Assembly (NCBI GenBank): GCA_000230955.3
Contig: CP007060.1
Span: forward strand, 1,798,001-1,862,000
From: Halobacterium sp. DL1
Lineage (GTDB): Archaea > Halobacteriota > Halobacteria > Halobacteriales > Halobacteriaceae
Length of the DNA stretch: 64,000 nucleotides
Reading direction: 5' to 3'
In this document: positions 6,353 to 50,793 of the stretch, piece by piece
Layout: every line of letters starts with the position of its first letter
Position numbering within the stretch: position 1 is the stretch's first letter
The notes under the pieces: model-generated
Database searches by the model: none
The model's input: the letters and a program-made list of their open reading frames with translations, nothing else
What the model was told of the DNA's origin: nothing
Position numbers and translations under genes: made by a program

Positions 6353-6374
6353 CGAAAACGCAAAGCGTTTTTCG
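6353..6374 (+). promoter_or_regulatory. Near-palindrome over the aglJ promoter
   Basis: CGAAAACGC (6353-6361) and GCGTTTTTCG (6365-6374) form an inverted repeat with a 3-base loop and one extra T. The T-run sits about 27 bases upstream of the aglJ ATG at 6397, where the TATA box should be, so the palindrome could be promoter, operator or both. Confidence 0.35.
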
Positions 6375-6396: not shown

Positions 6397-7311
6397 ATGA
6401 CCGACTACGAGGACGTGTGCGCCCTCGTTCCTACCCGGAACGAAGCCAGGACCATCGGCGACGTCGTCGACGGCCTCCACGACGTCGGCATCGAGCACGT
6501 TCTCGTCGTCGACGGCCACTCGACGGACGACACCACGGAGATTGCCGAGGACCACGGCGCCCGCGTCATAGAACAGTCAGGTGCCGGCAAAGGCCAAGCC
6601 GTCCGCGAGGGCGTTGAGCACATCGAGCAAGAGTACGTCATCCTGCTCGACGGCGACGGGACGAACCCGCCCGAGCAGGCGCCACGCCTCCTCGACCCGC
6701 TCGTCGCCGGCGACGCAGACCACGTCATCGGCGACCGGACCGCGGACATGCAACCTGGCGCGATGAGCAGATTCAACCAGGTCGGTAACCACATCATCAA
6801 CGCCGCGTTCGGCCGCATCCACGGGGAGGATTACGGCGACATCCTCTCGGGCTACCGCGCGTTCACGCGGGACTCCTTCGAGCAGATGTTCCTCTCCGCG
6901 GAGGGGTTCGGCATCGAGACGGAGATGGCCGTCGAGTGCGCGCGCCACGATATCCCCGTCGCAGTCGTGCCCACGACGTACAAGGCGCGCCCCGAGGGGT
7001 CGGAGACGAACCTCCACCCCGTGGCGGACGGCGGACGCATCATCGTCACGCTGTACAGCCTCGCGAAGACGTCGAACCCGCTGTTCTACTTCGGCAGCAT
7101 CGGCACAGTTTTCGGCGCTATCGGCGCCGCCATCGCAACGTACGTCGCCTACGACTGGTTCGTCAACGGCATCTCCCACGAGGCGCTCACCATCGTCGGC
7201 GGCGTCAGCGTCCTGTTCGGCCTCCAGTTGCTGATGTTCGGGCTGCTGTCGGACCTCGTGGTGACGCTCCACCGCGAGCAGAGCCGCCGCCTCGAGGAGC
7301 TCCGCGACTAG
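6397..7311 (+). CDS. aglJ: AglJ-type dolichyl-phosphate hexosyltransferase (N-glycosylation)
   Basis: 304 aa. A cytoplasmic GT2 domain holds ALVPTRNEARTIGDVV (9-24), VVDGHSTDDT (37-46) and D85-G-D87 as the DxD motif, followed by two C-terminal helices (about 229-250 and 263-288). The order and the RNEARTIGDVV text match AglJ of haloarchaea, which adds the first hexose to dolichol phosphate for the S-layer N-glycan. The stop codon overlaps the stop of the convergent minus-strand gene through a shared CTAG. The oligosaccharyltransferase AglB is not in the window. Confidence 0.88.
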   Translation: MTDYEDVCALVPTRNEARTIGDVVDGLHDVGIEHVLVVDGHSTDDTTEIAEDHGARVIEQSGAGKGQAVREGVEHIEQEYVILLDGDGTNPPEQAPRLLDPLVAGDADHVIGDRTADMQPGAMSRFNQVGNHIINAAFGRIHGEDYGDILSGYRAFTRDSFEQMFLSAEGFGIETEMAVECARHDIPVAVVPTTYKARPEGSETNLHPVADGGRIIVTLYSLAKTSNPLFYFGSIGTVFGAIGAAIATYVAYDWFVNGISHEALTIVGGVSVLFGLQLLMFGLLSDLVVTLHREQSRRLEELRD

Positions 7312-36846: not shown

Positions 36847-37641
36847 CTACATGGAGATGTCCCCAGTCTGCAGGTTCACCTCGATGATGTTGACGTACTC
36901 CTTGACGACGCGGGGGAGATCCTCCGTGAACCGCTCGTCCTGGAGTCGGCTCGTCGGCGCCGAGAGGCTGAGAGCCCCCAGTACGTCGCCGCTGGGACCG
37001 AGAATCGGGCTGCCGACCGCGCGGATGCCGAGCAGGTCCTCCTCGTCGTTCGCGGCGTACCCGCGTTCACGGACCGTCTCCAGTTCGGCTTTGAACTCCC
37101 CGAGGTCGGTGATGCTGTAGGGGGTGTGCTGGGGGAGGCCGTGCTGGTCGATGACTGCGTCGACGTCGTCCTCGTCGAACTCCGAGAGGATGGACTTCCC
37201 GGCGGCGGAGTAGTGGAGGTGTCGGTCCGTCTCCTCCCGGTTCTTCATGAAGAACTCTCTGCCGACGGCGCGGTCCCCGAAGGACTCGTAGAGGATCGAC
37301 TCGAGGCCGTTCTCCTCGGTGATGAGGTGGACACACTCCCCTGACTCCACGGCGAGTTCGTCCACCTCGCCCTTCGCCGCGCGGTAGAGCGGGACGCTGT
37401 TCCGGACGTACTCCCCGAACGTGAGGAACGCGGGACCGAGCGCGTAGCTGTCCCCCCGGTGTTCCACGAAGCCGTGGTCGCGCAGCGTCGCGAGGTGGGT
37501 GTGGAGCGCGCCCTTCGAGAGGTCGATCTCCCCGGCCAACTCCGCGAGCGTCGCCCCGCCCATACTCCGGAGCGCTTCGAGAATCTGGAGCGCCTTGTCT
37601 ACGGAGGCGATGGTCCGCTTCCCCCCGTCGTCTGTTGCCAT
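36847..37641 (-). CDS. IclR-family transcriptional regulator
   Basis: 264 aa. N-terminal winged helix-turn-helix (about 10-75, ASVDKALQILEALRSMGGAT and LSKGALHTHLATLRDHGF) and a C-terminal effector domain (GREFFMKNREETDRHLHYSAAGKSILS, AVGSPILGPSGDVLGALSLSAPT). It is divergent from the class III aminotransferase and has its own TATA-like acctattt 27 bases upstream. It is the only dedicated regulator in the island, so it probably controls the neighbouring catabolic promoters (inference). Confidence 0.92.
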   Translation of the reverse strand: MATDDGGKRTIASVDKALQILEALRSMGGATLAELAGEIDLSKGALHTHLATLRDHGFVEHRGDSYALGPAFLTFGEYVRNSVPLYRAAKGEVDELAVESGECVHLITEENGLESILYESFGDRAVGREFFMKNREETDRHLHYSAAGKSILSEFDEDDVDAVIDQHGLPQHTPYSITDLGEFKAELETVRERGYAANDEEDLLGIRAVGSPILGPSGDVLGALSLSAPTSRLQDERFTEDLPRVVKEYVNIIEVNLQTGDISM

Positions 37642-37767
37642 GCTGCCCTATTCGTGCCGGCGCCCAAATAGGTTTTGACCATCACAAATTCCGTTCCTTC
37701 CCCAGGGCATAATCACTTACTGACTACCGAGAACAAGACTTAAGACCTATTTAGACAAATTCCGTGT
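37642..37767. promoter_or_regulatory. Divergent iclR/aminotransferase regulatory region
   Basis: Contains two exact copies of ACAAATTCCGT (37684-37694 and 37755-37765), a perfect inverted pair AAATAGGT/ACCTATTT (37666-37673 and 37745-37752), and CTGACTACCGAGAACA (37720-37735), which is shared with two other promoters of the island. The left AAATAGGT doubles as the iclR TATA box. These are good candidates for IclR operators. Confidence 0.55.
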
Positions 37768-39096
37768 ATGAACAGGGAGACGGCCGAGCCCACAGCCGAC
37801 CAGCGCTCCGGCGACGCGTCGGAAGCCTGGGTCGCAGCACACCAGGACGTCGCGGCCCCCAGCGAGTACTCACACGAGTTCGTCTGGGACGTCACCGGCG
37901 ACGCCGAGGGGCCGTTCGTGACTGACCTCGACGGCAACGTCCTGATGGACTTCACGTGCCACATCGGCGCCGCGCCGCTCGGGTACAACAACCCCAAGGT
38001 TCTGGACAAACTCAGCGAGTTCGACCTCGTCGACCCGCTGAAGATCGCGGGCCAGGACTTCTACTTCGGCAGCGGCACCGTCGACGACCCGGAGTTCCCC
38101 GGGTCGACCCAGCTGATGCAGGAGCTCACCGAGCGGTCCAGCCAGTACGGCATGGACACGGTGTTCCTCTCGAACTCCGGCGCGGAGGCCATCGAGAACG
38201 CGATGAAGGTGGCCTACGACTACTGCGACGCCCCCAAGTACGGCATCACGTTCACGGGGGCGTTCCACGGTCGGACCTTTGGCGCGCTGTCGCTGACGAG
38301 AGCCAAGAGCGTCTACACGCGAAAGTTCCCGGAGCTGTCGGGCATCCGGGAGGTGCCGTTCTGCGCCTGCGAGGGCGACTGCACGTGCGGGTTCTGGGCG
38401 GGCGGCCAGTCGCGACTGGAGACCCTCCTCGGGCCGGGCGGCCACGTCGACCCGAACGAGGTCGCGTTCCTCGTGATCGAACCGATCCAGGGCGTCGGCG
38501 GCTACCGGTTCCCGAGCGACGAGTTCGCGCGCGAGGTCGGCCGCGTCTCCGAGACGTACGACATCCCGCTCATCGTGGACGAGATTCAGACCGGCGTCGG
38601 TCGCTCCGGGTCGATGTGGGCCTCGGACCACTACCCGTTCGAACCAGACATCATCGCGGCCGGGAAGGCGCTGCGCGTCGGCGCGACCGTCGGCCGCTCG
38701 GAGCTGTTCCCCGACGAGAAGAACCGCCTCGGCTCCACGTGGGGCGGCGGCGACGTCATCGCCTCGATGCAGGGCGCGTTCACGCTCGAAGCCATCGACG
38801 AACACGACCTGCTGGCGAACGCGGAGACCCGCGGCGCAGCGCTCGTCGACTCGCTCGACACCCACCACGACTGCGTCGAGGACAGCCGTAACCTCGGGCT
38901 GCTCGCGGCGGTCGACTACGATACGAAGGAACGGCGCGACGCCGTCGTGGCGGCGGCACTGGACCGCGGTCTGCTCACGCTGGGCTGTGGTACCCGGACG
39001 CTGCGCCTGCTCCCGCCACTGGACGTCACCGAGCGCGAGGTCGACCTCGGGACCTCGCTGCTGAACGACGCCGTCGCGGAGGTCGCCGATGACTGA
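37768..39096 (+). CDS. Class III aminotransferase with CxCx3CxC insert
   Basis: 442 aa, fold-type I PLP enzyme of the GABA/ornithine aminotransferase class. SNSGAEAIENAMKVA (134-148), D271 in LIVDEIQTGVGR and the probable PLP lysine K300 (AAGKALRVGA) are present. C199, C201, C205 and C207 (FCACEGDCTCGF) form a tight Cys cluster not needed for catalysis, perhaps a metal or redox site. The 3' end overlaps the next gene by 8 bases. A GABA-, DABA- or beta-amino-acid aminotransferase are all possible. Confidence 0.85.
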   Translation: MNRETAEPTADQRSGDASEAWVAAHQDVAAPSEYSHEFVWDVTGDAEGPFVTDLDGNVLMDFTCHIGAAPLGYNNPKVLDKLSEFDLVDPLKIAGQDFYFGSGTVDDPEFPGSTQLMQELTERSSQYGMDTVFLSNSGAEAIENAMKVAYDYCDAPKYGITFTGAFHGRTFGALSLTRAKSVYTRKFPELSGIREVPFCACEGDCTCGFWAGGQSRLETLLGPGGHVDPNEVAFLVIEPIQGVGGYRFPSDEFAREVGRVSETYDIPLIVDEIQTGVGRSGSMWASDHYPFEPDIIAAGKALRVGATVGRSELFPDEKNRLGSTWGGGDVIASMQGAFTLEAIDEHDLLANAETRGAALVDSLDTHHDCVEDSRNLGLLAAVDYDTKERRDAVVAAALDRGLLTLGCGTRTLRLLPPLDVTEREVDLGTSLLNDAVAEVADD

Positions 39097-40051
39097 CGCA
39101 CCCGACGTCGTCGTCCTCCGCGAGGGGACGGAGGGCCTGGACATGGCCGACTACGCGGACGCCATCCGCGAGCGCCTGCCGGACGCCGACGTCCGCCACG
39201 CCCGCACCCCTCACGAGGAGCGCGAACTCGTCCAGCACGCGCCGGTCGTCACCGGCGTGGGCATCGACGAGGACCTGCTCGACGCCGCCGAGGAACTGGA
39301 ACTGTTCGCGTGTGCGTTCGCCGGCACCGGCCACCTCCCGACTGACGAACTCGAGGCCCGCGGGGTCACCGTCACGAACGCCGGCGGCATCCACGCGCCC
39401 GGCATCGCCGAGCAGGCTATCGGGAACATCCTGACGTTCTCCCGCCGCCTCCACGAGGGGTGGCGGCGCAAGCAGAACCGCGAGTGGCGGCACTTCCAGT
39501 CGTTCGAACTGACCGACTCGACGGTCACCATCGTCGGCCTGGGGTCCATCGGCCAGGCAGTCGCCCAGCGCCTCGAGGGGTTCGAGGTCGACACCATCGG
39601 AGTCCGGTACACGCCGGAGAAGGGCGGCCCGACGGACGAGGTCATCGGCTTCGGCGAGCGCGAGTTCCACGACGCGCTCGCCCGGACGGACTACCTCGTC
39701 GTCGCGTGCCCGCTCACGGACCTCACCCGGGGACTGGTCGGCGACGCCGAACTCGCCACGCTGCCGCCGCACGCCGTCGTCGTCAACACCGCGCGCGGCC
39801 CGATTCTGGACACGGACGCCGTCGTCGGAGCGCTCCAGACGGAGAGCCTGCGCGGCGTCGCGCTGGACGTCACCGACCCCGAGCCGCTCCCCGAGGACCA
39901 CGTGCTCTGGACGCTGGAGAACGCACTCATCACGCCCCACACGGGTGGCCACACCCCCAAGCACTGGGACCGACTCGCGGACATCCTCGCGCACAACTAC
40001 GACGCCCGCGACTCTGGCGAAGAACTACAGAACGTCGTCATCGCCGGCTGA
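39089..40051 (+). CDS. D-2-hydroxyacid dehydrogenase
   Basis: 320 aa. NAD-binding motif VGLGSIGQAVAQRL (about 149-162), the LTDLTRGLVGDAELATL and VNTARGPILDTDAV segments, and a catalytic His in TPHTGGHTPKHWD. It reduces 2-oxoacids or oxidises D-2-hydroxyacids with NAD(H). It overlaps the class III aminotransferase, suggesting that it acts on the oxoacid produced there. Confidence 0.88.
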   Translation: MTDAPDVVVLREGTEGLDMADYADAIRERLPDADVRHARTPHEERELVQHAPVVTGVGIDEDLLDAAEELELFACAFAGTGHLPTDELEARGVTVTNAGGIHAPGIAEQAIGNILTFSRRLHEGWRRKQNREWRHFQSFELTDSTVTIVGLGSIGQAVAQRLEGFEVDTIGVRYTPEKGGPTDEVIGFGEREFHDALARTDYLVVACPLTDLTRGLVGDAELATLPPHAVVVNTARGPILDTDAVVGALQTESLRGVALDVTDPEPLPEDHVLWTLENALITPHTGGHTPKHWDRLADILAHNYDARDSGEELQNVVIAG

Positions 40052-40070: not shown

Positions 40071-41249
40071 CTACACGACGAAGAGGTCGCGGTCGAAGTC
40101 CGCCAGCGTCTCCGCGCCGTTCTTCGTGACCCGGAACGTCTCGCTGATCTCGACGCCGAAGTCGTCGAACCAGATGCCCGGAATCATGTGGAAGGCCATG
40201 TCCTCCTCGAGCACCGTCTCGTCGCCGGGCCGGAGGCTGGCGGTGTGTTCGCCCCAGTCCGGCGGGTAGCCGATGCCCGTCGAGTAGCCGAGGCGGGAGT
40301 CCTTCTCGATGCCGTGTTTCGCGATACTCTCGCTCCAGACAGCCTCGACCTCCTCGGCGGTGACGCCGGGTTCGACGGCGTCGAGAGCGTCCTGGAGTCC
40401 GCCCCTGACGACCTCGGCGGTTTCGGCCATCTCGGGGTCTGGTTCGCCGACGCTGAGCGTGCGCGCCATCGGGCAGTGGTAGCGGTGCTTGCAGCCCGCG
40501 AGTTCGACGATGACGGGGTCACCGTTCTCGAACTCGCGGTCGGACCACGAGAGGTGCGGGGTGCCGGTGTAGTCCCCCGAGGGCATCAGCGGGACGATGG
40601 CCGGGTAGTCGCCGCCGAACTCCTCGGTGCCGCCGATGAGGCCCTCGTAGATGGCGGCCGCGGCGTCGGACTCGCGGACGCCCTCGCCGATGGTGTCGAC
40701 GGCAGCCTGCATCCCCGTCTCGGCCAGCTGTGCGGCCTGCTCCATGTACGCTATCTCCGCGTCGGTCTTCTTCAGCCGGACCCAGTTCACCAGCAGCGTG
40801 GCGTCCTCCGTGTCGGCCTCGGGCAGCTGGTCGGTGAGGCGCGCGTGGGACTTCGCGGTGTAGTAGTAGGCGTCCATCTCCACGCCGAGCGTTCGGTCGT
40901 CGTAGCCGAACTCCTCGACCACCGTCGCGACGTAGTCCATGGGGTGTTTGTCGTGTGGGGACTGGACGTAGTCGTCCGTGTAGGAGAGGACGTGGTCGTC
41001 GTCCATCCACGTCGTCACCTCCGCGGACTTGGCGTCCATCTCGCGGCCGACCCACACGGGGTCGTGGTCGAGCGTGAGCAGCACGCCCTGGTGGACGTAG
41101 AACGACCAGGACTCGTAGCCCGTGAGGTAGTTCATGTTCGCGGGGTCGGTGACGAGCAGGGCGTCGAGGCCGGCCTCGCGCATCCGTTCGCGCGTCCGGT
41201 CGACCCGCCGTTCGTACTCACTACTCCGGAAGGGGACGAGTTCACTCAT
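40071..41249 (-). CDS. doeA: DoeA/EutD-like ectoine hydrolase (M24 pita-bread fold)
   Basis: 392 aa, creatinase/prolidase fold. From memory the text is very close to ectoine hydrolases: GYESWSFYVHQGVL (44-57), VGVEMDAYYYTAKSH, LVNWVRLKK, EFGGDYPAIVPLMPSG (210-225), VELAGCKHRYHCPMARTL (248-265), DSRLGYSTGIGYPPDWGE and IPGIWFDDFGVEISE. The usual five metal ligands of M24 peptidases are missing, as in DoeA. E249 lies where I would place the nucleophilic Glu reported for EutD. The predicted reaction is ectoine to N-acetyl-diaminobutyrate. Divergent from a diaminobutyrate-type aminotransferase. It has a TATA box (ggtttatg) 30 bases upstream. Confidence 0.8.
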   Translation of the reverse strand: MSELVPFRSSEYERRVDRTRERMREAGLDALLVTDPANMNYLTGYESWSFYVHQGVLLTLDHDPVWVGREMDAKSAEVTTWMDDDHVLSYTDDYVQSPHDKHPMDYVATVVEEFGYDDRTLGVEMDAYYYTAKSHARLTDQLPEADTEDATLLVNWVRLKKTDAEIAYMEQAAQLAETGMQAAVDTIGEGVRESDAAAAIYEGLIGGTEEFGGDYPAIVPLMPSGDYTGTPHLSWSDREFENGDPVIVELAGCKHRYHCPMARTLSVGEPDPEMAETAEVVRGGLQDALDAVEPGVTAEEVEAVWSESIAKHGIEKDSRLGYSTGIGYPPDWGEHTASLRPGDETVLEEDMAFHMIPGIWFDDFGVEISETFRVTKNGAETLADFDRDLFVV

Positions 41250-41303
41250 TCACTCGGACCCTCGTGGAGTGTTCGCATAAACCTTGCGCGAGACGGTCAG
41301 TTT

Positions 41304-41318
41304 CTGACTACGGAAACA
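41304..41318 (+). promoter_or_regulatory. Shared promoter element, site 2 (divergent doeA/aminotransferase)
   Basis: CTGACTACGGAAACA begins exactly 64 bases upstream of the aminotransferase ATG at 41368. A TATA-like ctatttgt (41337-41344) follows. Flanking TTT makes it an imperfect palindrome (TTTCTG...CGGAAA). The same element appears upstream of two other units in the island. Confidence 0.5.
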
Positions 41319-41367
41319 CTGGTTCCTGTGAACAATCTATTTGTGGGCGTGCCACCTGGGTGGTCGT

Positions 41368-42732
41368 ATGGCCGGACCACCGATTCACGAACTCCACTAC
41401 GCAGAGGCACCCTCGGTCGACTCAGTGCCCGGGCCGAACTCCGACCGCCTCCTGAAGAAACAGGCCGAAGTCGACAGCAGCGCCGTCGCCTACCCAAACA
41501 ACATCCCGCTCGCCTTCGAGGAGGGGAAGGGCGCGACGCTCAAGGACGTCGACGGAAACGTCTTCCTGGACTTCTTCGCGGGCATCGGCGTCTACAACGT
41601 CGGGCACGCCAACCCCTACGTCAACGAGGGCGTCCACGAGCAGATCGACAAGCTCACGCACACCGTCGACTTCCCGACCCAGCCCCGACTCGACCTCATC
41701 GAGAAGCTCGACGAGATTGCGCCCGGCAGCCTCTCGGGCAACAGCCGCGTCGTCTTCGGCGGCCCGACTGGGAGCGACGCCATCGAGGCCTGCATCAAGC
41801 TCGCGAAGTACAACACGGGCGGCAACGGCCTCCTCGCGTTCCGGAACTCCTACCACGGCGCCACCTCGGGCGCGATGAGCATCACGTCGAACAAGAAGTT
41901 CAAGAAACCGTACGCGCCGCTGCTGTCGGACGTCGTCCACGCGCCGTTCCCCTACCCGTTCCAGGAGGGTCGTGACCCCGAGGAGTCCGTCGAGCACGCA
42001 CTCGCGGAGGTGCGTTCCATCGTCGAAGAGCCGTACGGCGGCATGGCTGACCCCGCAGGCATCTTCGCCGAACCCATCCAGGGCGAGGGCGGCGTCATCG
42101 TCCCGCCGGAGGGGTTCTTGCAGGGGCTCCGCGACATCGCCGACGAGAACGACCTCCCGCTCGTCTTCGACGAGATCCAGGTCGGTCTGGGCCGCACCGG
42201 CGAGTGGTGGGCCTCGGACCACTACGACGTGACGCCGGACGCCATGGCGATGGCGAAGGCCCTCGGTGGGAACGGCCAGCCGCTGTCCGGGACGCTCTAC
42301 AGCGAGGAACTCGACACGTGGGGGCCCGGCGACCACGCCGGCACCTACCGGGGGCACGTCCCCGCGATGGTCGGCGGTTTGCGCGCCATCGAGTACATCG
42401 AGTCCCACGACCTGCTCGACCACGCCACCCAGGTAGGCGAGCAGATCCGGAGCCGGCTCCGGGACGCCGCGCAGAACGACCCGGGGCTCGGCCAGGTGCG
42501 CGGGAAGGGGCTGTTTGTCGGCGCGGAGTTCGTCGACGACGAGGGGAACCCGGACGACGACCGTGTGGACGCCATCCAGCAGTACTGCTACGAGCACGGC
42601 GTCCTCGTCTGGACGGCCGGCCAGTACAGCAACGTCCTCCGCTTGCTCCCGCCGCTGGTGCTCACCGAGGAGCAGGCCGAGGTCGGCACGGAGATCATCG
42701 CGGACGCCATCGAAGCGACGGCCGCCAACTAG
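41368..42732 (+). CDS. Diaminobutyrate-type class III aminotransferase (DoeD/EctB-like candidate)
   Basis: 454 aa. It has FGGPTGSDAIEACIKLAKY (130-148), RNSYHGATSGAMSIT, EPIQGEGGVIVPP, D268 in LVFDEIQVGLGRTGEWWA and the PLP lysine K297 (AMAKALGG). The gene text is that of diaminobutyrate--2-oxoglutarate aminotransferases. In ectoine breakdown DoeD converts diaminobutyrate to aspartate semialdehyde. It is divergent from the ectoine hydrolase-like gene and two bases upstream of the M20 gene. Synthesis of diaminobutyrate for export is less likely since no ectA/ectC is present. Confidence 0.82.
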   Translation: MAGPPIHELHYAEAPSVDSVPGPNSDRLLKKQAEVDSSAVAYPNNIPLAFEEGKGATLKDVDGNVFLDFFAGIGVYNVGHANPYVNEGVHEQIDKLTHTVDFPTQPRLDLIEKLDEIAPGSLSGNSRVVFGGPTGSDAIEACIKLAKYNTGGNGLLAFRNSYHGATSGAMSITSNKKFKKPYAPLLSDVVHAPFPYPFQEGRDPEESVEHALAEVRSIVEEPYGGMADPAGIFAEPIQGEGGVIVPPEGFLQGLRDIADENDLPLVFDEIQVGLGRTGEWWASDHYDVTPDAMAMAKALGGNGQPLSGTLYSEELDTWGPGDHAGTYRGHVPAMVGGLRAIEYIESHDLLDHATQVGEQIRSRLRDAAQNDPGLGQVRGKGLFVGAEFVDDEGNPDDDRVDAIQQYCYEHGVLVWTAGQYSNVLRLLPPLVLTEEQAEVGTEIIADAIEATAAN

Positions 42733-42733
42733 T

Positions 42734-44008
42734 ATGCCCGACACCGAGCGATTGCGAACGCTGCGGCGGGAACTCCACCGGTTCCCCGAACCGGCGTGGC
42801 GGGAGTTCCGCACGACCTGTCGGCTGGTCGCGGAACTGGAGTCGGTCGGCGTCGACGAACTGCACGTGGGGCGCGCGGCGATGGACCCCGACGAGCGGAT
42901 GGCCGTCCCCGAGGACGACGAACTCGGCGAGTGGTACGAGCGCGCCGCCGCGGCGGGCGTCGACGACTCCGTGCTCTCCCAATTAGACGGTGGCTACACC
43001 GGCGTCGTCGCGCGGATAGCCTCCGGGGACGGCCCCCACGTCGGCCTGCGGGTCGACATCGACGGGCTGCTCGTCGAGGAGTCCGAGGACGACGCCCACG
43101 CGCCCGAGCGGGAGGGGTTCCGCTCGGAGTACGTCGAGTCGATGCACGCCTGCGGCCACGACGGCCACATGACCATCGGGGTCGGCGTCATCGAGGCCAT
43201 CAAGGACAGCGACTTCGAGGGCGCCCTGACCGTCTTCTTCCAGCCGGCGGAGGAGGCCTCCGGGGGCGGGAAGCCGATGGCCGAGAGCGAGCACGTCGAC
43301 GGCATCGACTACCTTTTCGCGGTCCACCTCGGCCTCGGCCACCCGACCGGCGAGGTGGTCGGCGGCATCGAGAAACCGCTCGCGATGTGCCACGTCGAGG
43401 CGACGTTCCACGGCGAATCAGCACACGCCGGCGTCGCCCCCAACGAGGGGCGGAACGCGATACAGGCGCTGACGACGGCCGTCCAGAACACGTACGGCAT
43501 CCCGCGCCACGCCGACGGCATGACGCGCGTGAACGTCGGGAAGATCGGCGGCGGCACCGCGAGCAACATCATCGCGGAGCGGGCCCACGTGCTCGCGGAG
43601 GCCCGCGGCGAGACGACCGAACTGATGGCGTACGCCCGCGACGAGATGCGCCGCGTCTTCGAGTCCGCAGCGGAGATGCACGACTGCACGGTCGACTTCG
43701 ACGTCGTCAGCGAGTCGCCGCGCGCGGACAGCGACCCCCAACTCGCGGCACTCGTCGCCGACGTGGCCGACCACGACGACCGGGTCGACAGCGTGCTCCA
43801 GCACGCCGACTTCGGCGCGAGCGAGGACGCGACCTTCCTGATGGAGGCCGTCCAGGAGCAGGGCGGTGCCGCCACGTACGCCATCGTCGGCACGGACCAC
43901 CCGACCGCCCACCACACGCCCACCTTCGACGTCGACGAGCGCTCGCTACCGGTGGCGGTCGACGTGCTCGCGGCGTCCATCGAGCGGGTCGCCGCCGACG
44001 GCGTGTAG
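42734..44008 (+). CDS. M20-family amidohydrolase (AbgA-like), candidate N-acetyl-diaminobutyrate deacetylase
   Basis: 424 aa. Binuclear-metal motifs of M20D enzymes are clear: GLRVDIDGL, MHACGHDGHMTIG, FQPAEEAS, ESAHAG and a final TAHH. The long N-terminal region (RELHRFPEPAWREFRTTC ... WYERAAAAGV) matches AbgA, which splits aminobenzoyl-glutamate. Here the gene begins one base after the diaminobutyrate aminotransferase stop, so deacetylation of N-acetyl-diaminobutyrate is the simplest role. That step is normally done by the unrelated AstE/AspA-family DoeB. Confidence 0.85.
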   Translation: MPDTERLRTLRRELHRFPEPAWREFRTTCRLVAELESVGVDELHVGRAAMDPDERMAVPEDDELGEWYERAAAAGVDDSVLSQLDGGYTGVVARIASGDGPHVGLRVDIDGLLVEESEDDAHAPEREGFRSEYVESMHACGHDGHMTIGVGVIEAIKDSDFEGALTVFFQPAEEASGGGKPMAESEHVDGIDYLFAVHLGLGHPTGEVVGGIEKPLAMCHVEATFHGESAHAGVAPNEGRNAIQALTTAVQNTYGIPRHADGMTRVNVGKIGGGTASNIIAERAHVLAEARGETTELMAYARDEMRRVFESAAEMHDCTVDFDVVSESPRADSDPQLAALVADVADHDDRVDSVLQHADFGASEDATFLMEAVQEQGGAATYAIVGTDHPTAHHTPTFDVDERSLPVAVDVLAASIERVAADGV

Positions 44009-44067
44009 ACGGCCCCGCCGGGGCCACGCGAGCGAACGTTTATCCCCTCTCCTGCGGTCGTTCCGGT

Positions 44068-45555
44068 ATGCGAAACGCGGACCACGTCCGTACCGTTGGC
44101 GAACTTCTCGGGTGCTCCCTCGACAGCAGCGACGTGGACGACTGGCGCGACGTCCCGGACGAGTACGACGCACTCGGAATGGCGGACGGCGAGTCCGCGC
44201 CGACGCCCACCGACGTGACGGTCGACCCGGACCTCTCCGCGGACGAGTTCAACGCCTTCGTCTCCACGTTCGCGCTCGTCGGCGACGGCGGGCCGCTCGG
44301 GGACCTGGACCTCGCGGTGAAGGACAACGTCGCCGTCGCGGGCGTCCCGCTCACGGCGGGGGTCCGCGCGTTCGAGGACGCGACGCCCGAACGGCACGCG
44401 CCCGTCGTCTCGCGACTGCTGGACGCCGGTGCGACGCTCGTGGGGAAGACGAACATGGACGAACTCGCCTACGGGCCGACCGGTGAGACGGGCGGGTTCG
44501 GGCCGACGCGGAACCCTCGCCACTCCGCGCACGTCGCCGGCGGGTCCTCGGCGGGCAGTGGTGCCGCCGTCGCCGCCGGCCTGGTGGACGCCGCGCTCGG
44601 CACCGACACCGGCGGTAGCGTCCGGATTCCCGCGTCGTTCTGTGGCGTCGTCGGCTACAAGCCGTCGGCCGGGGCCGTGCCGCGCGCCGGCGTCGTTCCG
44701 CTCGCGCCCTCCCTCGACCAGGTCGGCGTGCTCGCGGACTCGGTGCGGGACGCCGCCCGCGTCGCCGACGTGCTAGCCGGCCCACACCGCAGTGACCGGG
44801 CGACGCTGGGCAGGTCCGTCGGTCGCCTCGCTGCAGGCGCCGGCGACTCGCCCGCAGTCGCGGACTGCTCGTTCGGGCTCCCCGACGAGTTCCTTGGGCC
44901 CCACGTCGACCCGGCGGTGCGTGGCCACGTCGAGCGCGCAGTCAACACGCTCGAAGCGGCCGGCGCGTCCGTCGAACACTGCTCCATGCCGCGGTTCGAC
45001 GAGACGGCCCCCGCGTGGGACGCCCTCGCCAACGTCGAGTTCGCCGCCGCACTGTTCGCCGGGCTCACGCCCCTCGACGGCGTCGGCGTCGACGCCGCGT
45101 GGCACTCGGACGTCGCGAGCGTTCTCGGGTCCGACCCCCGCCACCGGTTCTGCGACCGGGTGGTGGAGAACGCTCTCGACGGCGCGGCGCTGCTCTCGGA
45201 GAGCGGTGGCGAAGTCTACGACCGGGCGCTCGCGGAGTGCGAGCGCTTCGCGGTCGGCTACCGGGACGCCCTCGAGGGGCACGACGCGCTGCTCGCGCCC
45301 ACGATGCCAATCACGGCACCGGCCGTCGGGGAGTGGCCACTGTCGGGGTCCGAGCGGGCGGCAGACGGCGTCGAGGACCGGCCGCCGCTGTCGGTGAACG
45401 TCCGCCAGGCGAACCTCCTGGGGGCGCCCGCGCTCTCGCTCCCGTGCGGCCGCGAGAGCGGCCTCCCGGTGGGCCTCCAGTTGCTCGGCGCGCCCGGCGA
45501 GGACGCCGCGCTAGTCGCGGCTGCGAGCGCCGTCGAGGCCGCACTGTCGGCGTGA
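44068..45555 (+). CDS. Amidase (amidase-signature family)
   Basis: 495 aa from the ATG at 44068, about 27 bases after a tttatccc box. The Ser-cisSer-Lys triad fits the family spacing exactly: K85 (LAVKDN), S160 (AGGSSAGSG) and S184 (GTDTGGSVRIP). It hydrolyses a carboxamide or acts on a cyclic amide. It is not GatA, because gatB/gatC are absent and the sequence departs from GatA at both ends. It follows the M20 gene on the same strand, suggesting a shared pathway for an amide substrate. Confidence 0.88.
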   Translation: MRNADHVRTVGELLGCSLDSSDVDDWRDVPDEYDALGMADGESAPTPTDVTVDPDLSADEFNAFVSTFALVGDGGPLGDLDLAVKDNVAVAGVPLTAGVRAFEDATPERHAPVVSRLLDAGATLVGKTNMDELAYGPTGETGGFGPTRNPRHSAHVAGGSSAGSGAAVAAGLVDAALGTDTGGSVRIPASFCGVVGYKPSAGAVPRAGVVPLAPSLDQVGVLADSVRDAARVADVLAGPHRSDRATLGRSVGRLAAGAGDSPAVADCSFGLPDEFLGPHVDPAVRGHVERAVNTLEAAGASVEHCSMPRFDETAPAWDALANVEFAAALFAGLTPLDGVGVDAAWHSDVASVLGSDPRHRFCDRVVENALDGAALLSESGGEVYDRALAECERFAVGYRDALEGHDALLAPTMPITAPAVGEWPLSGSERAADGVEDRPPLSVNVRQANLLGAPALSLPCGRESGLPVGLQLLGAPGEDAALVAAASAVEAALSA

Positions 45556-45558
45556 CGG

Positions 45559-45720
45559 TTACGAGGAGAGGGAGACGATTGTCGTCCCGACAACGACGAC
45601 GGCGGCCGCCGCGACGAGGCGGGGGGTGACACGCTCCAGGCGACGCGGGAGCAGGGCGGCCGAGAACACGAGCACGAGCAGTGGTGCGGTCTGGAAGATG
45701 GGGACGACTCCGTCTACCGG
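45559..45720 (-). pseudogene. Remnant of an EamA/DMT-family transporter (C-terminal helices only)
   Basis: On the minus strand, ending at a stop at 45559, about 53 codons read VVPIFQTAPLLVLVFSAALL then PRRLERVTPRLVAAAAVVVV and GTTIVSLSS. This is the last two helices of an EamA (DMT) transporter half. The homology stops near 45720, and further upstream the frame is antisense to the creatininase gene, so the first eight helices are gone. A decayed or recombined exporter/importer gene is the best reading. Confidence 0.6.
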
Positions 45721-45729
45721 CTCGCGGAC

Positions 45730-46500
45730 ATGACCTGGCAAGAGGTCGAGGCGGCCATCGAGGAGACCCAGACGATGCTGTTGCCGGTCGGGAGCACCGA
45801 ACAGCACGGCCACCACATGCCCCTCGGCGTAGACGTCTACATGCCGGAGGCGATCGCCGAGCGCGTCGCGGAGCGGACTGGCTGTCTGCTCGCACCGCCC
45901 GTCTGGTACGGCGTCAGCCCCCACCACACGTTCAAGCCGGGGACGTTCACCGTCGAGAGCGAGACGTTCCAGCACTACGTCCGGGACGTCTGCACCTCCG
46001 CCGCGGAGTGGGGCGTCGAGAACGTCCTCCTCGTGAACGGCCACTACCTCGTGCAGGACCCGGAACTCGACGTGGTGGTCCGCGAACTGACGACCGAACA
46101 CGGGATGCGCGCGTTCCACGTCCCGCTCATTTCGGTGTTCCAGGACGCCGCCACGGCCGTTCGTACGAGCGACGTCTCCTTCCACGCCTCCGAGTTCGAG
46201 ACGAGCCTGATGCTGGCACTGTTCCCGGACCTCGTGCAGATGGACCGCGCGGAGGCCGTCGACGTCCCCGACGACGCGCTCCCGCTCACGGAGTACGACG
46301 CCTACGGCGACAACCGCGTGGGCTGGGCGCTGTCCGCCGAGCGCATGAACGCCCTGACCCACACGGGGAACCTCGGCGACCCGACGGTCGCGACCCGCGA
46401 GAAGGGCGCCGAGATGGTCGAGGACGCCGTCACGAACGTCACGAACCTCGTCGACGCACTCGCCGGTCTCGACGCTCCAGAGTCGGGAGACGAGGAGTGA
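45730..46500 (+). CDS. Creatininase-family amidohydrolase
   Basis: 256 aa. Metal-binding N-terminal motif LLPVGSTEQHGHHMPLGVD (17-35), then VNGHY (usually NGHGGN) and SFHASEFETSLML. The family includes creatininase, mycofactocin MftE and FAPy deformylase ArfB. ArfB would follow GTP cyclohydrolase III, but that gene is 19 kb away. Here, inside a catabolic island, a cyclic-amide hydrolase is more natural. Substrate unknown. Confidence 0.85.
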   Translation: MTWQEVEAAIEETQTMLLPVGSTEQHGHHMPLGVDVYMPEAIAERVAERTGCLLAPPVWYGVSPHHTFKPGTFTVESETFQHYVRDVCTSAAEWGVENVLLVNGHYLVQDPELDVVVRELTTEHGMRAFHVPLISVFQDAATAVRTSDVSFHASEFETSLMLALFPDLVQMDRAEAVDVPDDALPLTEYDAYGDNRVGWALSAERMNALTHTGNLGDPTVATREKGAEMVEDAVTNVTNLVDALAGLDAPESGDEE

Positions 46501-46533
46501 GGAGCGGCGGCGAGCACCGACCGGGGAGAACGC

Positions 46534-47478
46534 TCAAACGACGCGGTTCTTCAGTGCGTCCCCCGCGTCGAGTCGCGAGAGGTTCTCGCCGACGAGCGTG
46601 GCGATATCCCGGTAGAACGCCTGGTTGGCGGCGGCAGCGTGGGGCGTGACGACGACGTCGTCGAAGTCCCACAGCGGCGAGTCCTCTGGGAGGGGTTCCG
46701 TCTCGAAGACGTCCAGTGCGGCCCCGGCAATGGTCTCCTCGCGGAGCGCGTCGACGAGCGCGTCCTGGTCGACGACTTCGCCGCGAGCGACGTTCACGAG
46801 GTAGGCGTCCTCGCGCATCGTCTCGAACTCGGACTCCCCGAGGAGTCCCTCCGTCTCGTCGGTCAGCGGGACGCAGAGCACGACGAACCGCGCGTCCTCG
46901 ATTGCGTCGTCGAGGTTCTCGGGGTGGAAGAGTTCGTCCACGCCCTCGACGGACTCCTCGGAGCGCTGGACGCCAGTCACCTCCATGCCGAGGGCGCTGC
47001 AGCGCGCCGCGACGGTGCCACCGATGGTCCCGAGGCCGACGACGCAGACGCGTTCGCCGGGCAGCGTGAACGGGGCGTCCCATTCCGGGAACTCCCAGTG
47101 GTGGTCCTGCTGGTTCGCGACGTAGTCGTGGAGGCGCCGCGCCAGCGCCAACATCATCCCGAGTGCGGTGTCGCCGACGCTGTCTCCGTGGAGACCCGTG
47201 CTGTTCGTCAGCGCGATGCCCCGCCGCTCGTACTCCTCGACCGGGAACGATTCGACGCCCGCGAACGTCGTGTGGATCCACTCCGGGTCGACGTCGAGGA
47301 GCCGTGGCTGGTGGGTGAACGTCACGAAGGCGTCGCAGGTCTCCGGGTCGGCGCCCTCGTCGTCCGCGTCCCGTATCGAGACGACGTCGGCGTCGACGCC
47401 CGCGAGTTCGTCCCGCAGCGCCTCGTACGGGAAGTCTATCGCTGTCGACTCGTGGACGCCGATGCGCTCGACTGCCAT
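46534..47478 (-). CDS. D-2-hydroxyacid dehydrogenase (second copy)
   Basis: 314 aa from the ATG at 47478. NAD motif VGLGTIGGTVAARC, VNVARGEVVDQDAL, and catalytic His in VTPHAAAANQAFYRD. It is only distantly alike to the copy at 39.1 kb, so not a recent duplication. It is convergent with the creatininase gene and divergent from an SDR. Confidence 0.87.
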   Translation of the reverse strand: MAVERIGVHESTAIDFPYEALRDELAGVDADVVSIRDADDEGADPETCDAFVTFTHQPRLLDVDPEWIHTTFAGVESFPVEEYERRGIALTNSTGLHGDSVGDTALGMMLALARRLHDYVANQQDHHWEFPEWDAPFTLPGERVCVVGLGTIGGTVAARCSALGMEVTGVQRSEESVEGVDELFHPENLDDAIEDARFVVLCVPLTDETEGLLGESEFETMREDAYLVNVARGEVVDQDALVDALREETIAGAALDVFETEPLPEDSPLWDFDDVVVTPHAAAANQAFYRDIATLVGENLSRLDAGDALKNRVV

Positions 47479-47629
47479 GCCAGAGGGGACCACGGGCCGC
47501 CGCATCAATGTTTGCCTCGGCGCAGTCGTCGGGGGGAGACGCTACGAGCAATGCGGCGCTGTGCGAGCGTCGAGCGGTCGACAATCGGCCGGGACTAGAA
47601 CTAATATCCGACAGTCCGAGTCTCGGCCC

Positions 47630-48436
47630 ATGAACGGAGATCTCAGCGGAGAGACCGCCATCGTCACGGGGTCGAGCAGCGGGCTCGGTCGCGCCATCGC
47701 AGAGGGGTTCGCCGAGGCGGGGGCGAACGTGGTCACCAACTCGCGGGCCCAGGAACGCGCCGACGACACCGCCGACGCCATCCGCGACGCCGGCGGAACG
47801 GCCGTCGCTGCGGAGGCTGACGTTAGCGAGAAGGAGGACGTGGAGGCGCTCGTCCAGGCCGCCGTCGACGAGTTCGGGAGCCTCGACATCATGGTGAACA
47901 ACGCCGGGACGACCGTCGAGAAACAGCTCTTCGACCAGACGCCCGAGGACTGGCAGCACGTCCTCGACGTGAACCTCACCGGGACGTTCTACGGTTCGCA
48001 GGTCGCCGGCGAACAGATGGCCGAGCAGGGCGACGGTGGCCAGATCATCAACATGTCCAGCATCTACGGGAGCGTCGGCGTGCAGGGCCGCGCGCCGTAC
48101 AACGCCACGAAAGGCGGCATCGAGAATCTGACGCGGTGTCTCGCGGTGGAACTCGCGGAGTACGACGTCCACGTGAACGCGCTCGCGCCGGGCTACATCA
48201 AGACGGCCCTCGCGGAGGCGCCGTGGGGCGAGGAGATAACAGAGGACCACGACTGGCCGTACTACGGCTACACGGAGGAACACATCACGAACCGCACTCC
48301 ACTCGACCGCTTTGGCACGTTCGAGGAGGTGAGCAACTGCGCGACGTTCCTCGCGGCCGGCGACCACTACATGACCGGCGAAGTGATGCACATGGACGGC
48401 GGGTGGCTGGCGTTCGGCTGGGGAAGCAAAGCGTAG
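47630..48436 (+). CDS. Canonical short-chain dehydrogenase (SDR)
   Basis: 268 aa from the ATG at 47630 (leader upstream is non-coding). Rossmann motif TGSSSGLGRAIAEG (14-27), NNAGT, catalytic Ser in INMSSIYG and intact Y-x3-K in APYNATKGGIENL. Typical of NAD(P)-dependent alcohol or 3-oxoacyl reductases, glucose 1-dehydrogenase-like. A TATA-like aactaata lies about 28 bases upstream. Confidence 0.88.
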   Translation: MNGDLSGETAIVTGSSSGLGRAIAEGFAEAGANVVTNSRAQERADDTADAIRDAGGTAVAAEADVSEKEDVEALVQAAVDEFGSLDIMVNNAGTTVEKQLFDQTPEDWQHVLDVNLTGTFYGSQVAGEQMAEQGDGGQIINMSSIYGSVGVQGRAPYNATKGGIENLTRCLAVELAEYDVHVNALAPGYIKTALAEAPWGEEITEDHDWPYYGYTEEHITNRTPLDRFGTFEEVSNCATFLAAGDHYMTGEVMHMDGGWLAFGWGSKA

Positions 48437-48471
48437 CGGACGCGGTCGCGGGCGAGGCGTGCGTAGCGTCC

Positions 48472-49284
48472 CTACACCGACCGGACGACGCCGCCGTCGA
48501 CGAGCAGCGCCGTCCCGTTGACGTAACTCGCGCCCGGCCCGGAGAGGAACGCCACGACGTCGCCGAGTTCCGAGGGCTGGGCCACGTCCCCCGTGGGGAT
48601 GTCGTCCGGCCAGTAGCTCTCCAGGCCCTCCTCGTAGGAGTCGTACTCGCCGCGCTCGACGGCATCCTCGACGATGTTCCGGAGCGCGGGCGTCTCCACC
48701 GCCCCCGGGAGTACGGCGTTCGCGCGGACCTCGGGAGCGAACTCCCGCGAGAGCGTCTTCACGAGGCCGATGACGCCCATGCGGACGGTGCTGGAGAGCA
48801 CGAGCGACGGGACGGGCTGGCGGACCGTGATGGACGCGATAGCCACGATGGAGCCACCGCCGTCGCGGAGGTGCGGGCCGGCCTCCCGCGTCAGCCAGAC
48901 GGCGCTCATCACGAGCAGGTCGAACGCCTCGTACCAGTCGTCATCGGTCACGTCGTAGAGGCCACCGCTGGCCGGGTCGCCCGTGTTGAGGACGAGGTGG
49001 TCGATGCCACCGAACGTCTCGACGGTCGCTTCGACCAGGCCGGCGACGGCGTCCGCGTCCGTCAAGTCCGCAGCGTGCCCGACGACGTCACCGGGTCCGG
49101 CGGCGTCCACGTCGGCGACTGCGTCGTCGAGTCGGTCCTCGTCGCGGCCGTTGAGGACCACGTTCGCTCCCGCCTCGGCCAGCGACGTCGCGGCGGCCTT
49201 CCCGAGGCCGCTGCTCGACGCGGCGACGAGCGCGGTGTTCCCGTCGAGGTTCGGCGTTCCAGATGGGTTGTCGACTGTTGGCAC
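48472..49284 (-). CDS. BKR-like SDR lacking the catalytic Tyr/Lys pair
   Basis: 270 aa from a GTG at 49284, chosen because a ATTTAAG box lies about 28 bases upstream (an earlier GTG at 49305 sits too near that box). Rossmann motif AASSSGLGKAAATSL (21-35). S151 is kept, but Y-x3-K is replaced by S164 and R168 (LVLSSTVRMGVIGL). This is the pattern of the BKR_like_SDR_like subgroup, in which the tetrad is incomplete. It is convergent with the canonical SDR. Confidence 0.82.
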   Translation of the reverse strand: MPTVDNPSGTPNLDGNTALVAASSSGLGKAAATSLAEAGANVVLNGRDEDRLDDAVADVDAAGPGDVVGHAADLTDADAVAGLVEATVETFGGIDHLVLNTGDPASGGLYDVTDDDWYEAFDLLVMSAVWLTREAGPHLRDGGGSIVAIASITVRQPVPSLVLSSTVRMGVIGLVKTLSREFAPEVRANAVLPGAVETPALRNIVEDAVERGEYDSYEEGLESYWPDDIPTGDVAQPSELGDVVAFLSGPGASYVNGTALLVDGGVVRSV

Positions 49285-49367
49285 ACCGGCCCTGTTCGTC
49301 GTCACCCCGCTTAAATGGAGGAGCACCGCGGATTCGGTCCGCCGTGTTGGGAATCCACCAGCAATTT

Positions 49368-49382
49368 CTGACCACAGGGACA
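49368..49382 (+). promoter_or_regulatory. Shared promoter element, site 3 (aldehyde dehydrogenase)
   Basis: CTGACCACAGGGACA begins exactly 64 bases upstream of the ATG at 49432, the same distance as site 2 from its gene. A TATA-like tattcaatag follows at about -30. It differs from site 2 only by same-class (purine or pyrimidine) changes over 15 bases. Confidence 0.5.
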
Positions 49383-49431
49383 AGGTATATTCAGCTCCGT
49401 ATTCAATAGCCGTTGAGACGGAACTTTAGCC

Positions 49432-50793
49432 ATGGACGTAATCAACCCTGCCACCGGCGAACAGGTCGACTCATTCGCGGAACACTCGGCGGGTGACGTC
49501 GAGGACGCCCTCGAGCGCGCTGAAGACGCCTACCAGGACTGGCGCGAACAGCCGATGCGCGAGCGCGAGGAGCTGCTCGCGAACGCCGCGGACGTCCTCC
49601 GCGAGAACAAGCGGAAGTACGCGGAGACGATGACCCAGGAGATGGGGAAACCGATCAGCCAGGCCATCGGCGAGGTCGAGAAGTGCGCGTGGCTCTGCGA
49701 CCACTACGCCGAGAACGCGAGCGCCTACCTCGGCGACGAGCACCACCCGAGCCCGGCGGGCACGGACGTCAAGACGGTCCACCAGCCCCTGGGCGCGGTG
49801 CTGGCCGTGATGCCGTGGAACTTCCCGTTCTGGCAGGTGTTCCGGTTCGCCGCGCCGTACCTGACGGCCGGTAACGTCGGCCTCCTGAAACACGCCTCGA
49901 ACGTTCCCGGGTGCGCCGTCGCCATCGAGGAAGTGTTCCGAGAGGCGGGCTACCCCGAGGACGTCTTCCAGACGCTGCTCATCCCCTCGGACCTCGTCGA
50001 CGACGTCATCGCCGACGAGCGCGTGAAGGCAGCGACCCTGACCGGGAGCGGCCCAGCGGGTCGCGCAGTCGCGTCCTCCGCGGGCGAGAACCTCAAGAAG
50101 ACAGTCCTCGAACTCGGCGGGAGCGACCCGTTCGTCGTCCTCGACGACGCGGACGTCGAGGCGGCCGCGGAGACCGGTGCGTGGGCGCGCAACCAGAACG
50201 GCGGGCAGTCCTGCATCGCTGGCAAGCGCTTCGTCGTCCACACCGACGTCTACGACGAGTTCGTCGACCGGTTCGTCGACGAGTTCGAGTCGCTGACCGT
50301 CGGCGACCCGATGGACGAGGAGACGGACGTCGGCCCGCAGTCGCGGCCGGACCTCCTCGAGGAGCTCGACGAACAGGTCCAGGAGAGCATCGAAGCGGGC
50401 GCCACCGTCCTCACGGGCGGCGAGCCGATGGACCGCGAGGGCTCGTACTATCCGCCGACCATCCTGGCCGACGTCCCCCACGGCTGTCCGGTCGACGCCG
50501 AGGAGACGTTCGGCCCCGTCGCCGCGGTGTACGAGGTCGAGGACGAGGAGGCCGCCATCGAACTCGCGAACGACACGGAGTTCGGCCTCGGTGGGAGCGT
50601 CTGGACCGAGGACCGCGAGCGCGGCGAGCGCGTCGCCAAGCGCATCGAGGCTGGCTGCGTCTACGTCAACCAGCTAGTCAAGTCCGACCCCCGCGTGCCG
50701 TTCGGCGGCATCGGTGAGTCCGGCTACGGCCGCGAGCTCTCCGGGGTGGGCATCAGGGAGTTCGTCAACAAGAAAACAGTCTGGATCGAGTGA
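49432..50793 (+). CDS. Succinate/aspartate-semialdehyde-type aldehyde dehydrogenase (DoeC candidate)
   Basis: 453 aa. N130 in MPWNFPFW, E227 in VLELGGSDPF and the catalytic C261 in NGGQSCIAGKRF are in place. C-terminal VPFGGIGESGYGRELSGVG is normal. The text is that of the NAD(P)-dependent SSADH group. In the ectoine pathway DoeC oxidises aspartate semialdehyde to aspartate. The shared promoter element supports co-regulation with the diaminobutyrate aminotransferase. Succinate semialdehyde from a GABA-type transaminase is an alternative substrate. Confidence 0.85.
   Translation: MDVINPATGEQVDSFAEHSAGDVEDALERAEDAYQDWREQPMREREELLANAADVLRENKRKYAETMTQEMGKPISQAIGEVEKCAWLCDHYAENASAYLGDEHHPSPAGTDVKTVHQPLGAVLAVMPWNFPFWQVFRFAAPYLTAGNVGLLKHASNVPGCAVAIEEVFREAGYPEDVFQTLLIPSDLVDDVIADERVKAATLTGSGPAGRAVASSAGENLKKTVLELGGSDPFVVLDDADVEAAAETGAWARNQNGGQSCIAGKRFVVHTDVYDEFVDRFVDEFESLTVGDPMDEETDVGPQSRPDLLEELDEQVQESIEAGATVLTGGEPMDREGSYYPPTILADVPHGCPVDAEETFGPVAAVYEVEDEEAAIELANDTEFGLGGSVWTEDRERGERVAKRIEAGCVYVNQLVKSDPRVPFGGIGESGYGRELSGVGIREFVNKKTVWIE

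Follow-up and report, generated by a model that had tools for sequence, protein, structure and literature searches.

What reads the promoters of a predicted ectoine-catabolism cluster in Halobacterium sp. DL1, where two genes carry nearly the same 15-base element at the same distance from their start codons? The cluster lies in a stretch of 64,000 nt (contig CP007060.1, positions 1,798,001 to 1,862,000; hereafter the window), and coordinates given below are those of the window. The original prediction took CTGACTACGGAAACA (41304-41318), CTGACCACAGGGACA (49368-49382), and a third copy, CTGACTACCGAGAACA (37720-37735), as one promoter element bound by the neighbouring IclR-family protein. The elements are better described as arms of a longer palindromic operator belonging to a predicted ectoine-catabolism regulon found across Halobacteria. 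The most likely regulator is a different, putative one, designated here as fam9, and its gene appears to have been lost from this strain. We hold this joint reading (regulon, fam9, and loss) with moderate confidence.

The operator was defined by palindromic motif discovery in promoters of cluster genes from about 60 haloarchaeal genomes, with the window genome and its near relatives (the Halobacterium-like clade) held out. The motif obtained, TGTACACRGAATCYGTGTACA, has about 113 sites in 133 promoters and a log-likelihood of 848, compared with 31-39 for shuffled sequences. It corresponds to a 21-bp palindrome, TGTACACRG-AAT-CYGTGTACA, with the core TACACRG-N3-CYGTGTA. At the class III aminotransferase gene AT1, the operator is located at -18 (-18 to +3), over the start codon, in 28 out of 32 genes. 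Operators of the M20 peptidase gene, doeA, and the second class III aminotransferase gene AT2 are mostly at -50 to -80, and those of the aldehyde dehydrogenase (ALDH) genes likewise at about -50 to -80. They are often paired, 22 or 42 bp apart. Only one site scoring above 12 was found in 300 kb of coding sequence of the same genes, and 10 of the 11 exact palindromes present genome-wide in six other genomes are within the doe region. In relatives, the common operator precedes both aminotransferase genes, doeA, and the genes for M20, hydroxyacid dehydrogenase, and cluster-linked ALDH; it was also found at BCCT transporter and threonine dehydratase-like genes.

When the held-out matrix was applied to the 64 kb of the window, four of the top five matches fell in this cluster (ranks 1, 3, 4, and 5, at 37750, 37708, 49398, and 37679, respectively). 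The operator sites are as follows.

37679..37699, + strand: additional weak site towards iclR, CCATCACAAATTCCGTTCCTT (score 8.9).
37708..37728, + strand: upstream AT1 operator between iclR and AT1, CATAATCACTTACTGACTACC (score 12.7); its right arm is the 37720 element.
37750..37770, + strand: principal AT1 operator, covering the start codon, TTTAGACAAATTCCGTGTATG (score 23.1, reached in 0 of 2000 promoter shuffles).
41292..41312, + strand: AT2 operator, also facing doeA, GACGGTCAGTTTCTGACTACG; it has a perfect 13-bp dyad at 41296-41308 and holds the first half of the 41304 element.
41314..41334, + strand: second AT2 site, AAACACTGGTTCCTGTGAACA, 22 bp downstream of the first (score 1.8, low in the window).
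49356..49376, + strand: weak ALDH upstream site, CACCAGCAATTTCTGACCACA (score 1.5); only its right arm is the 49368 element.
49398..49418, + strand: ALDH operator candidate, CGTATTCAATAGCCGTTGAGA, overlapping a TATA-like stretch (score 11.6).

The second-best match of the window (15.3, CGAAAACGCAAAGCGTTTTTC) is outside the cluster, at 6353-6373, just before the open reading frame at 6397.

The sites at the two aminotransferase genes can be compared with those of near relatives. The counterpart of the 37708 site in G393 is a perfect dyad, AGTAGACAGTTACTGTCTACT. The AT2 core consists of the dyad GTCAG-TTT-CTGAC and an adjoining TACG, and GTCAGTTTCTGACTACG is identical in G001 and G393; the 3' part of the 41304 element (GGAAACA) is not conserved, and in G010 a clean gap (deletion) replaces the dyad region. 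The general matrix scores the AT2 operator at -0.2 and misses the dyad because its arms read GTCAG/CTGAC instead of CACAG/CTGTG; judged from the sequence, each arm has changed from an original CTGTG to CTGAC. The register of the AT2 operator, -76, is the same as that of operators of the relatives' AT2 genes, with which the 41304 site aligns, and AT2 is probably leaderless. In the second AT2 site, CTGGTTCCTGTGAACAA is kept in G001 and G393, and the relatives have their second AT2 operator at -54/-57.

The 41304 and 49368 copies start exactly 64 bases before the ATG codons at 41368 and 49432, respectively, and they differ at 4 of 15 positions, all by transitions, as had been described. The third copy is indeed present between iclR and AT1, but 48 bases before the gene at 37768, not 64. 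Because of this offset, and because ALDH and AT2 sites of relatives range from -72 to -79, an exact 64-base spacing is not supported as a common promoter geometry. The 41304 and 37720 copies are right arms of palindromes; the 49368 copy is weak and has no matching left arm. Genome-wide tests were made by pattern matching. With both strands of the 3.16-Mb genome counted, the pattern CTGACYACNNRRACA is matched perfectly at just two places, the very 41304 and 49368 copies from which it was built. With up to two mismatches allowed, it has 341 matches, the 37720 site (two mismatches) among them, vs. 226 for the reversed control. A good match near the end of replicon C2 (315403) has no doe gene nearby.

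The copy at 49.4 kb is the least certain. It is quite possible, although we lean against it, that the 49368 element and its equal 64-base spacing are a coincidence and only the sites at 37.7 and 41.3 kb are real. The 49356-49376 site ranks 51st in the window with the general matrix and 35th with the clade matrix, and near relatives offer no orthologous ALDH promoter for comparison. Furthermore, when 30 window promoters were compared at equal offsets, the 15-mer pair (score 13.0) was equalled in 88 of 300 shuffles, and the 15-mer, being no better than chance, was rejected as a unit. Against coincidence, the pair extended 6 bases upstream, the 21-mer CARTTTCTGACYACRGRRACA, was equalled in only 1 of 300 shuffles of the same promoters; the signal is therefore taken as real and its unit as different from the one first proposed. 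In addition, the better site at 49398 lies 42 bp downstream of the 49356 site, the spacing of the AT1 pair, and strong operators are present at the cluster-linked ALDH genes in G046, G380, and G009. The 49398 site is suggestive only, because its score was reached by 45 of 2000 shuffles of its own promoter. This promoter has a better TATA-like stretch, GTATATTCA, and would give a short leader, in contrast to the probably leaderless AT2, which also speaks against a common 64-base geometry. The ALDH gene has a paralogue elsewhere in the same genome (84% identity, G000:C1:1640422-1641780), whose promoter carries no operator, and so the paralogue neither confirms nor explains the 49.4-kb site and was dropped from the comparison. 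The proposal of one regulon is nevertheless largely right, as promoters at 37.7 and 41.3 kb carry related operator-like sites and the same genes are under one operator in relatives, with the case at 49.4 kb weaker.

The candidate regulator fam9 was discovered because the strongest operators cover the start codon of its gene. It is a haloarchaeal protein of 215 aa, in which one conserved segment is strongly basic; no Pfam or NCBIfam family matched it, a search of solved structures (PDB) with its profile gave no significant match, and no further fam9 sequences were found in the viral contigs searched. It is present in 134 of the 144 genomes with doeA and in none of the 247 genomes without it (E 1e-50), and is located within 30 kb of doeA in 108 of the 134. 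In most genomes, an operator scoring 18-31 covers the start codon of fam9 itself. Full clusters without fam9 have 0-1 operators vs. a median near 5 in those with it (p 2e-4, phylogeny ignored), and all four AT1 genes that have no operator are in fam9-minus genomes (chance 4e-4 by count). Within genus g28, 11 sites accompany fam9 in G052, against 1 in G053 and 0 in G256, neither of which has fam9. Loss of an ordinary pathway gene is not expected to remove operators of other genes.

Distant paralogues of fam9 (about 35%), from the genus of the window strain and from other families, have a different recurrent element, ATAATC..GATTAT, at positions -18 and -61 relative to their own starts, the geometry that would be expected of a family of self-controlled regulators. 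In the 90 bases before the start codons at loci L286, L287, L288, L291, and L293, elements of the ATAATC..GATTAT type flank the TATA region. We consider it an open bet, with even chances, that fam9 founds a new haloarchaeal regulator family with no recognised DNA-binding domain. Its doe branch would read TACACRG-N3-CYGTGTA and control ectoine catabolism, and its sister branches would read other dyads (ATAATC..GATTAT) and control themselves. The window strain would then show how operators survive in nature after their regulator is lost, with an IclR protein possibly taking over.

Several points weigh against fam9 as the regulator. DNA binding by fam9 is deduced from position and co-occurrence. 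The structure model computed from the single sequence has a mean pLDDT of 43, which makes it unusable and too poor for a fold search, and no relative of solved structure turned up, so that a DNA-binding fold can at most be presumed. In G191, strong operators are present (contig C91, L320 2517, 4854, and 9360), but fam9 was not found; as the assembly consists of about 180 contigs, the gene may be in a gap. Among the fam9-minus genomes, the window strain and G010 are the two in which AT1 retains its start-site operator. The genome counts ignore phylogeny, and the co-occurrence profile was compared for only part of the other gene families.

In the window genome, which is 99.8% complete and in two contigs, fam9 was not found. 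In contig C58 of G001, the amidase and creatininase genes are separated by a segment that holds fam9 together with an ABC transporter, an ELFV-type dehydrogenase, an arginase-family gene, and further genes. In the window, the amidase and creatininase sides are joined at about 45,705-45,720, and a truncated EamA gene is left. The missing segment was traced by blastn, in which positions 61-429 and 11301-13115 of L323 are joined in the window.

45555..45720, - strand: scar, C-terminal remnant of the EamA transporter gene at the deletion junction (about 10.9 kb missing relative to G001).

The window strain thus appears to have lost fam9 by deletion at about 45.71 kb, though the junction could be an assembly join. 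G010 has no fam9 but keeps the transporter-side genes, which suggests that fam9 was lost separately in G010 and in the window strain.

The original prediction named IclR as the reader, and a gene for such a protein does adjoin the sites.

36847..37641, - strand: IclR-family regulator gene, divergent from AT1 (Pfam IclR_C, E 1e-27; also HTH_IclR).

According to this explanation, IclR binds the sites and controls the cluster in the window strain as XacR, RhcR, GacR, and MscR do elsewhere, and fam9 is a mere pathway gene. Two sites lie between iclR and AT1, known haloarchaeal IclR regulators are local activators (PMC11519228), fam9 is absent from this strain, and CTGAC-type palindromes are conserved in only part of the clade of the window strain. 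Orthologues of at least 60% identity were found in five genomes only (the window genome, G001, G010, G393, and G046), in all of them beside the doe cluster. With so limited a distribution, IclR cannot be the reader elsewhere: dozens of genomes have the operator and the cluster but no orthologue at this level, and it is fam9 that tracks the operator. Similarity to IclR is barely linked to doeA (58 of 144 genomes with doeA, 66 of 247 without), and G010 has IclR but not the 41304 palindrome. As a general reader of the operator, IclR was therefore rejected; as controller of the cluster in the window strain in place of fam9, we regard it as rather unlikely. It is, however, the only cluster regulator found in the window strain and therefore may have taken over the operators. 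In the iclR promoter (37655-37690), four species have the same TTTTGAC beside the TATA-like stretch, and CAAA/GAA follows at a distance of a few bases; this could be a separate IclR site.

That the upstream sites of the window are non-functional relics of fam9 operators with no present regulator is improbable. In favour of this reading, fam9 is absent, its missing segment is traceable, and the sites at AT2 and ALDH are poor matches to the general matrix; against it, the AT1 start-site operator still scores 23.1, and three species share an identical AT2 dyad although fam9 is retained in two of them.

The cluster in the window comprises the genes for IclR, AT1, hydroxyacid dehydrogenase, DoeA/EutD-like hydrolase, AT2, M20, amidase, creatininase, two SDR proteins, and SSADH-type ALDH.

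37768..39096, + strand: AT1, class III aminotransferase (NCBIfam), kept in relatives' clusters.
39089..40051, + strand: D-2-hydroxyacid dehydrogenase (NCBIfam), kept in relatives' clusters.
40071..41249, - strand: doeA, ectoine hydrolase-like M24 protein (TIGR02993 ectoine_eutD, E 2e-134, 448 bits).
41368..42732, + strand: AT2, class III aminotransferase, doeD-like (NCBIfam), kept in relatives' clusters.
42734..44008, + strand: M20 peptidase/deacetylase, candidate for the doeB role (Pfam M20, E 1e-24).
44005..45555, + strand: amidase (Pfam, E 6e-96).
49432..50793, + strand: ALDH of SSADH type, doeC-like (Pfam Aldedh, E 6e-141).

TIGR02993 is by far the best family for the DoeA-like protein, yet its 448 bits are below the equivalog cut-off of 613. 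The M20, class III aminotransferase, and SSADH-type ALDH genes are all in the cluster, with family matches that leave their substrates unfixed. Of 391 genomes in the class, 144 carry a DoeA-like gene, around which AT1, AT2, M20, and hydroxyacid dehydrogenase are conserved. The nearest named relative is H. bonnevillei, with 93% DoeA identity, and the window genome belongs to the Halobacterium group. Ectoine is the likely but unproven substrate of the cluster, because DoeA is below the curated cut-off and archaeal DoeA/EutD clusters are called provisional in a 2026 paper (PMC13188858). An ELFV dehydrogenase and a large FAD/FeS oxidase (L177 8092-9420 and 4903-8043) are frequent further members of haloarchaeal doe clusters (21-23 loci).

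In the mechanism proposed, fam9 would bind the dyad at the start of the leaderless AT1 and fam9 genes and block their transcription, thereby controlling its own gene, and would bind operators upstream of the TATA region at doeA, M20, AT2, and ALDH. A signal derived from ectoine, a pathway intermediate, would lift the repression. Repression is the simplest mode because a site over the start would block transcription, while sites upstream of the TATA region could allow activation. In the window strain, some of the operators persist and others have changed (CTGTG to CTGAC); after the loss of fam9, they would now be either relics or targets of the neighbouring IclR.

Archaeal ectoine catabolism is so far known from predicted gene clusters only, and no archaeal regulator of it is described in the sources consulted. 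The present analysis contributes a well-defined operator, its short list of target genes, and a regulator candidate that could be studied in culturable haloarchaea. Should fam9 bind the palindrome, a haloarchaeal protein family that is widespread and still unnamed would prove to be a new family of regulators, and the window strain, G010, and G053/G256 are natural cases of regulator loss in which the fate of orphaned operators can be studied.

Among known systems, EnuR (MocR/GabR) of bacterial ectoine catabolism is similar in having a local regulator, paired operators at the cluster promoter, and a doeA/eutD core enzyme. EnuR is, however, a large GntR-type protein that binds pyridoxal phosphate, while fam9 has 215 aa and no recognised domain. 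The EnuR operator is ATTGT-N6-ACAAT (PMC8739950) and the archaeal one is different, TACACRG-N3-CYGTGTA, with IclR and the candidate fam9 as the cluster regulators found, so that the cluster is not assigned to an EnuR regulon. With the haloarchaeal IclR activators XacR, RhcR, GacR, and MscR, the cluster shares an iclR gene beside catabolic genes, but here operator and cluster occur mostly without an orthologous IclR, and nothing turned up that ties IclR to the palindrome. The distribution of this operator fits neither EnuR nor the IclR activators. The closest likeness in gene content is to the putative haloarchaeal ectoine clusters of 2026 (PMC13188858), where a DoeA/EutD homologue occurs with aminotransferases, a peptidase, and a BCCT transporter in Halobacteria; the available text names neither a regulator nor an operator for the archaeal clusters, and both are proposed here.

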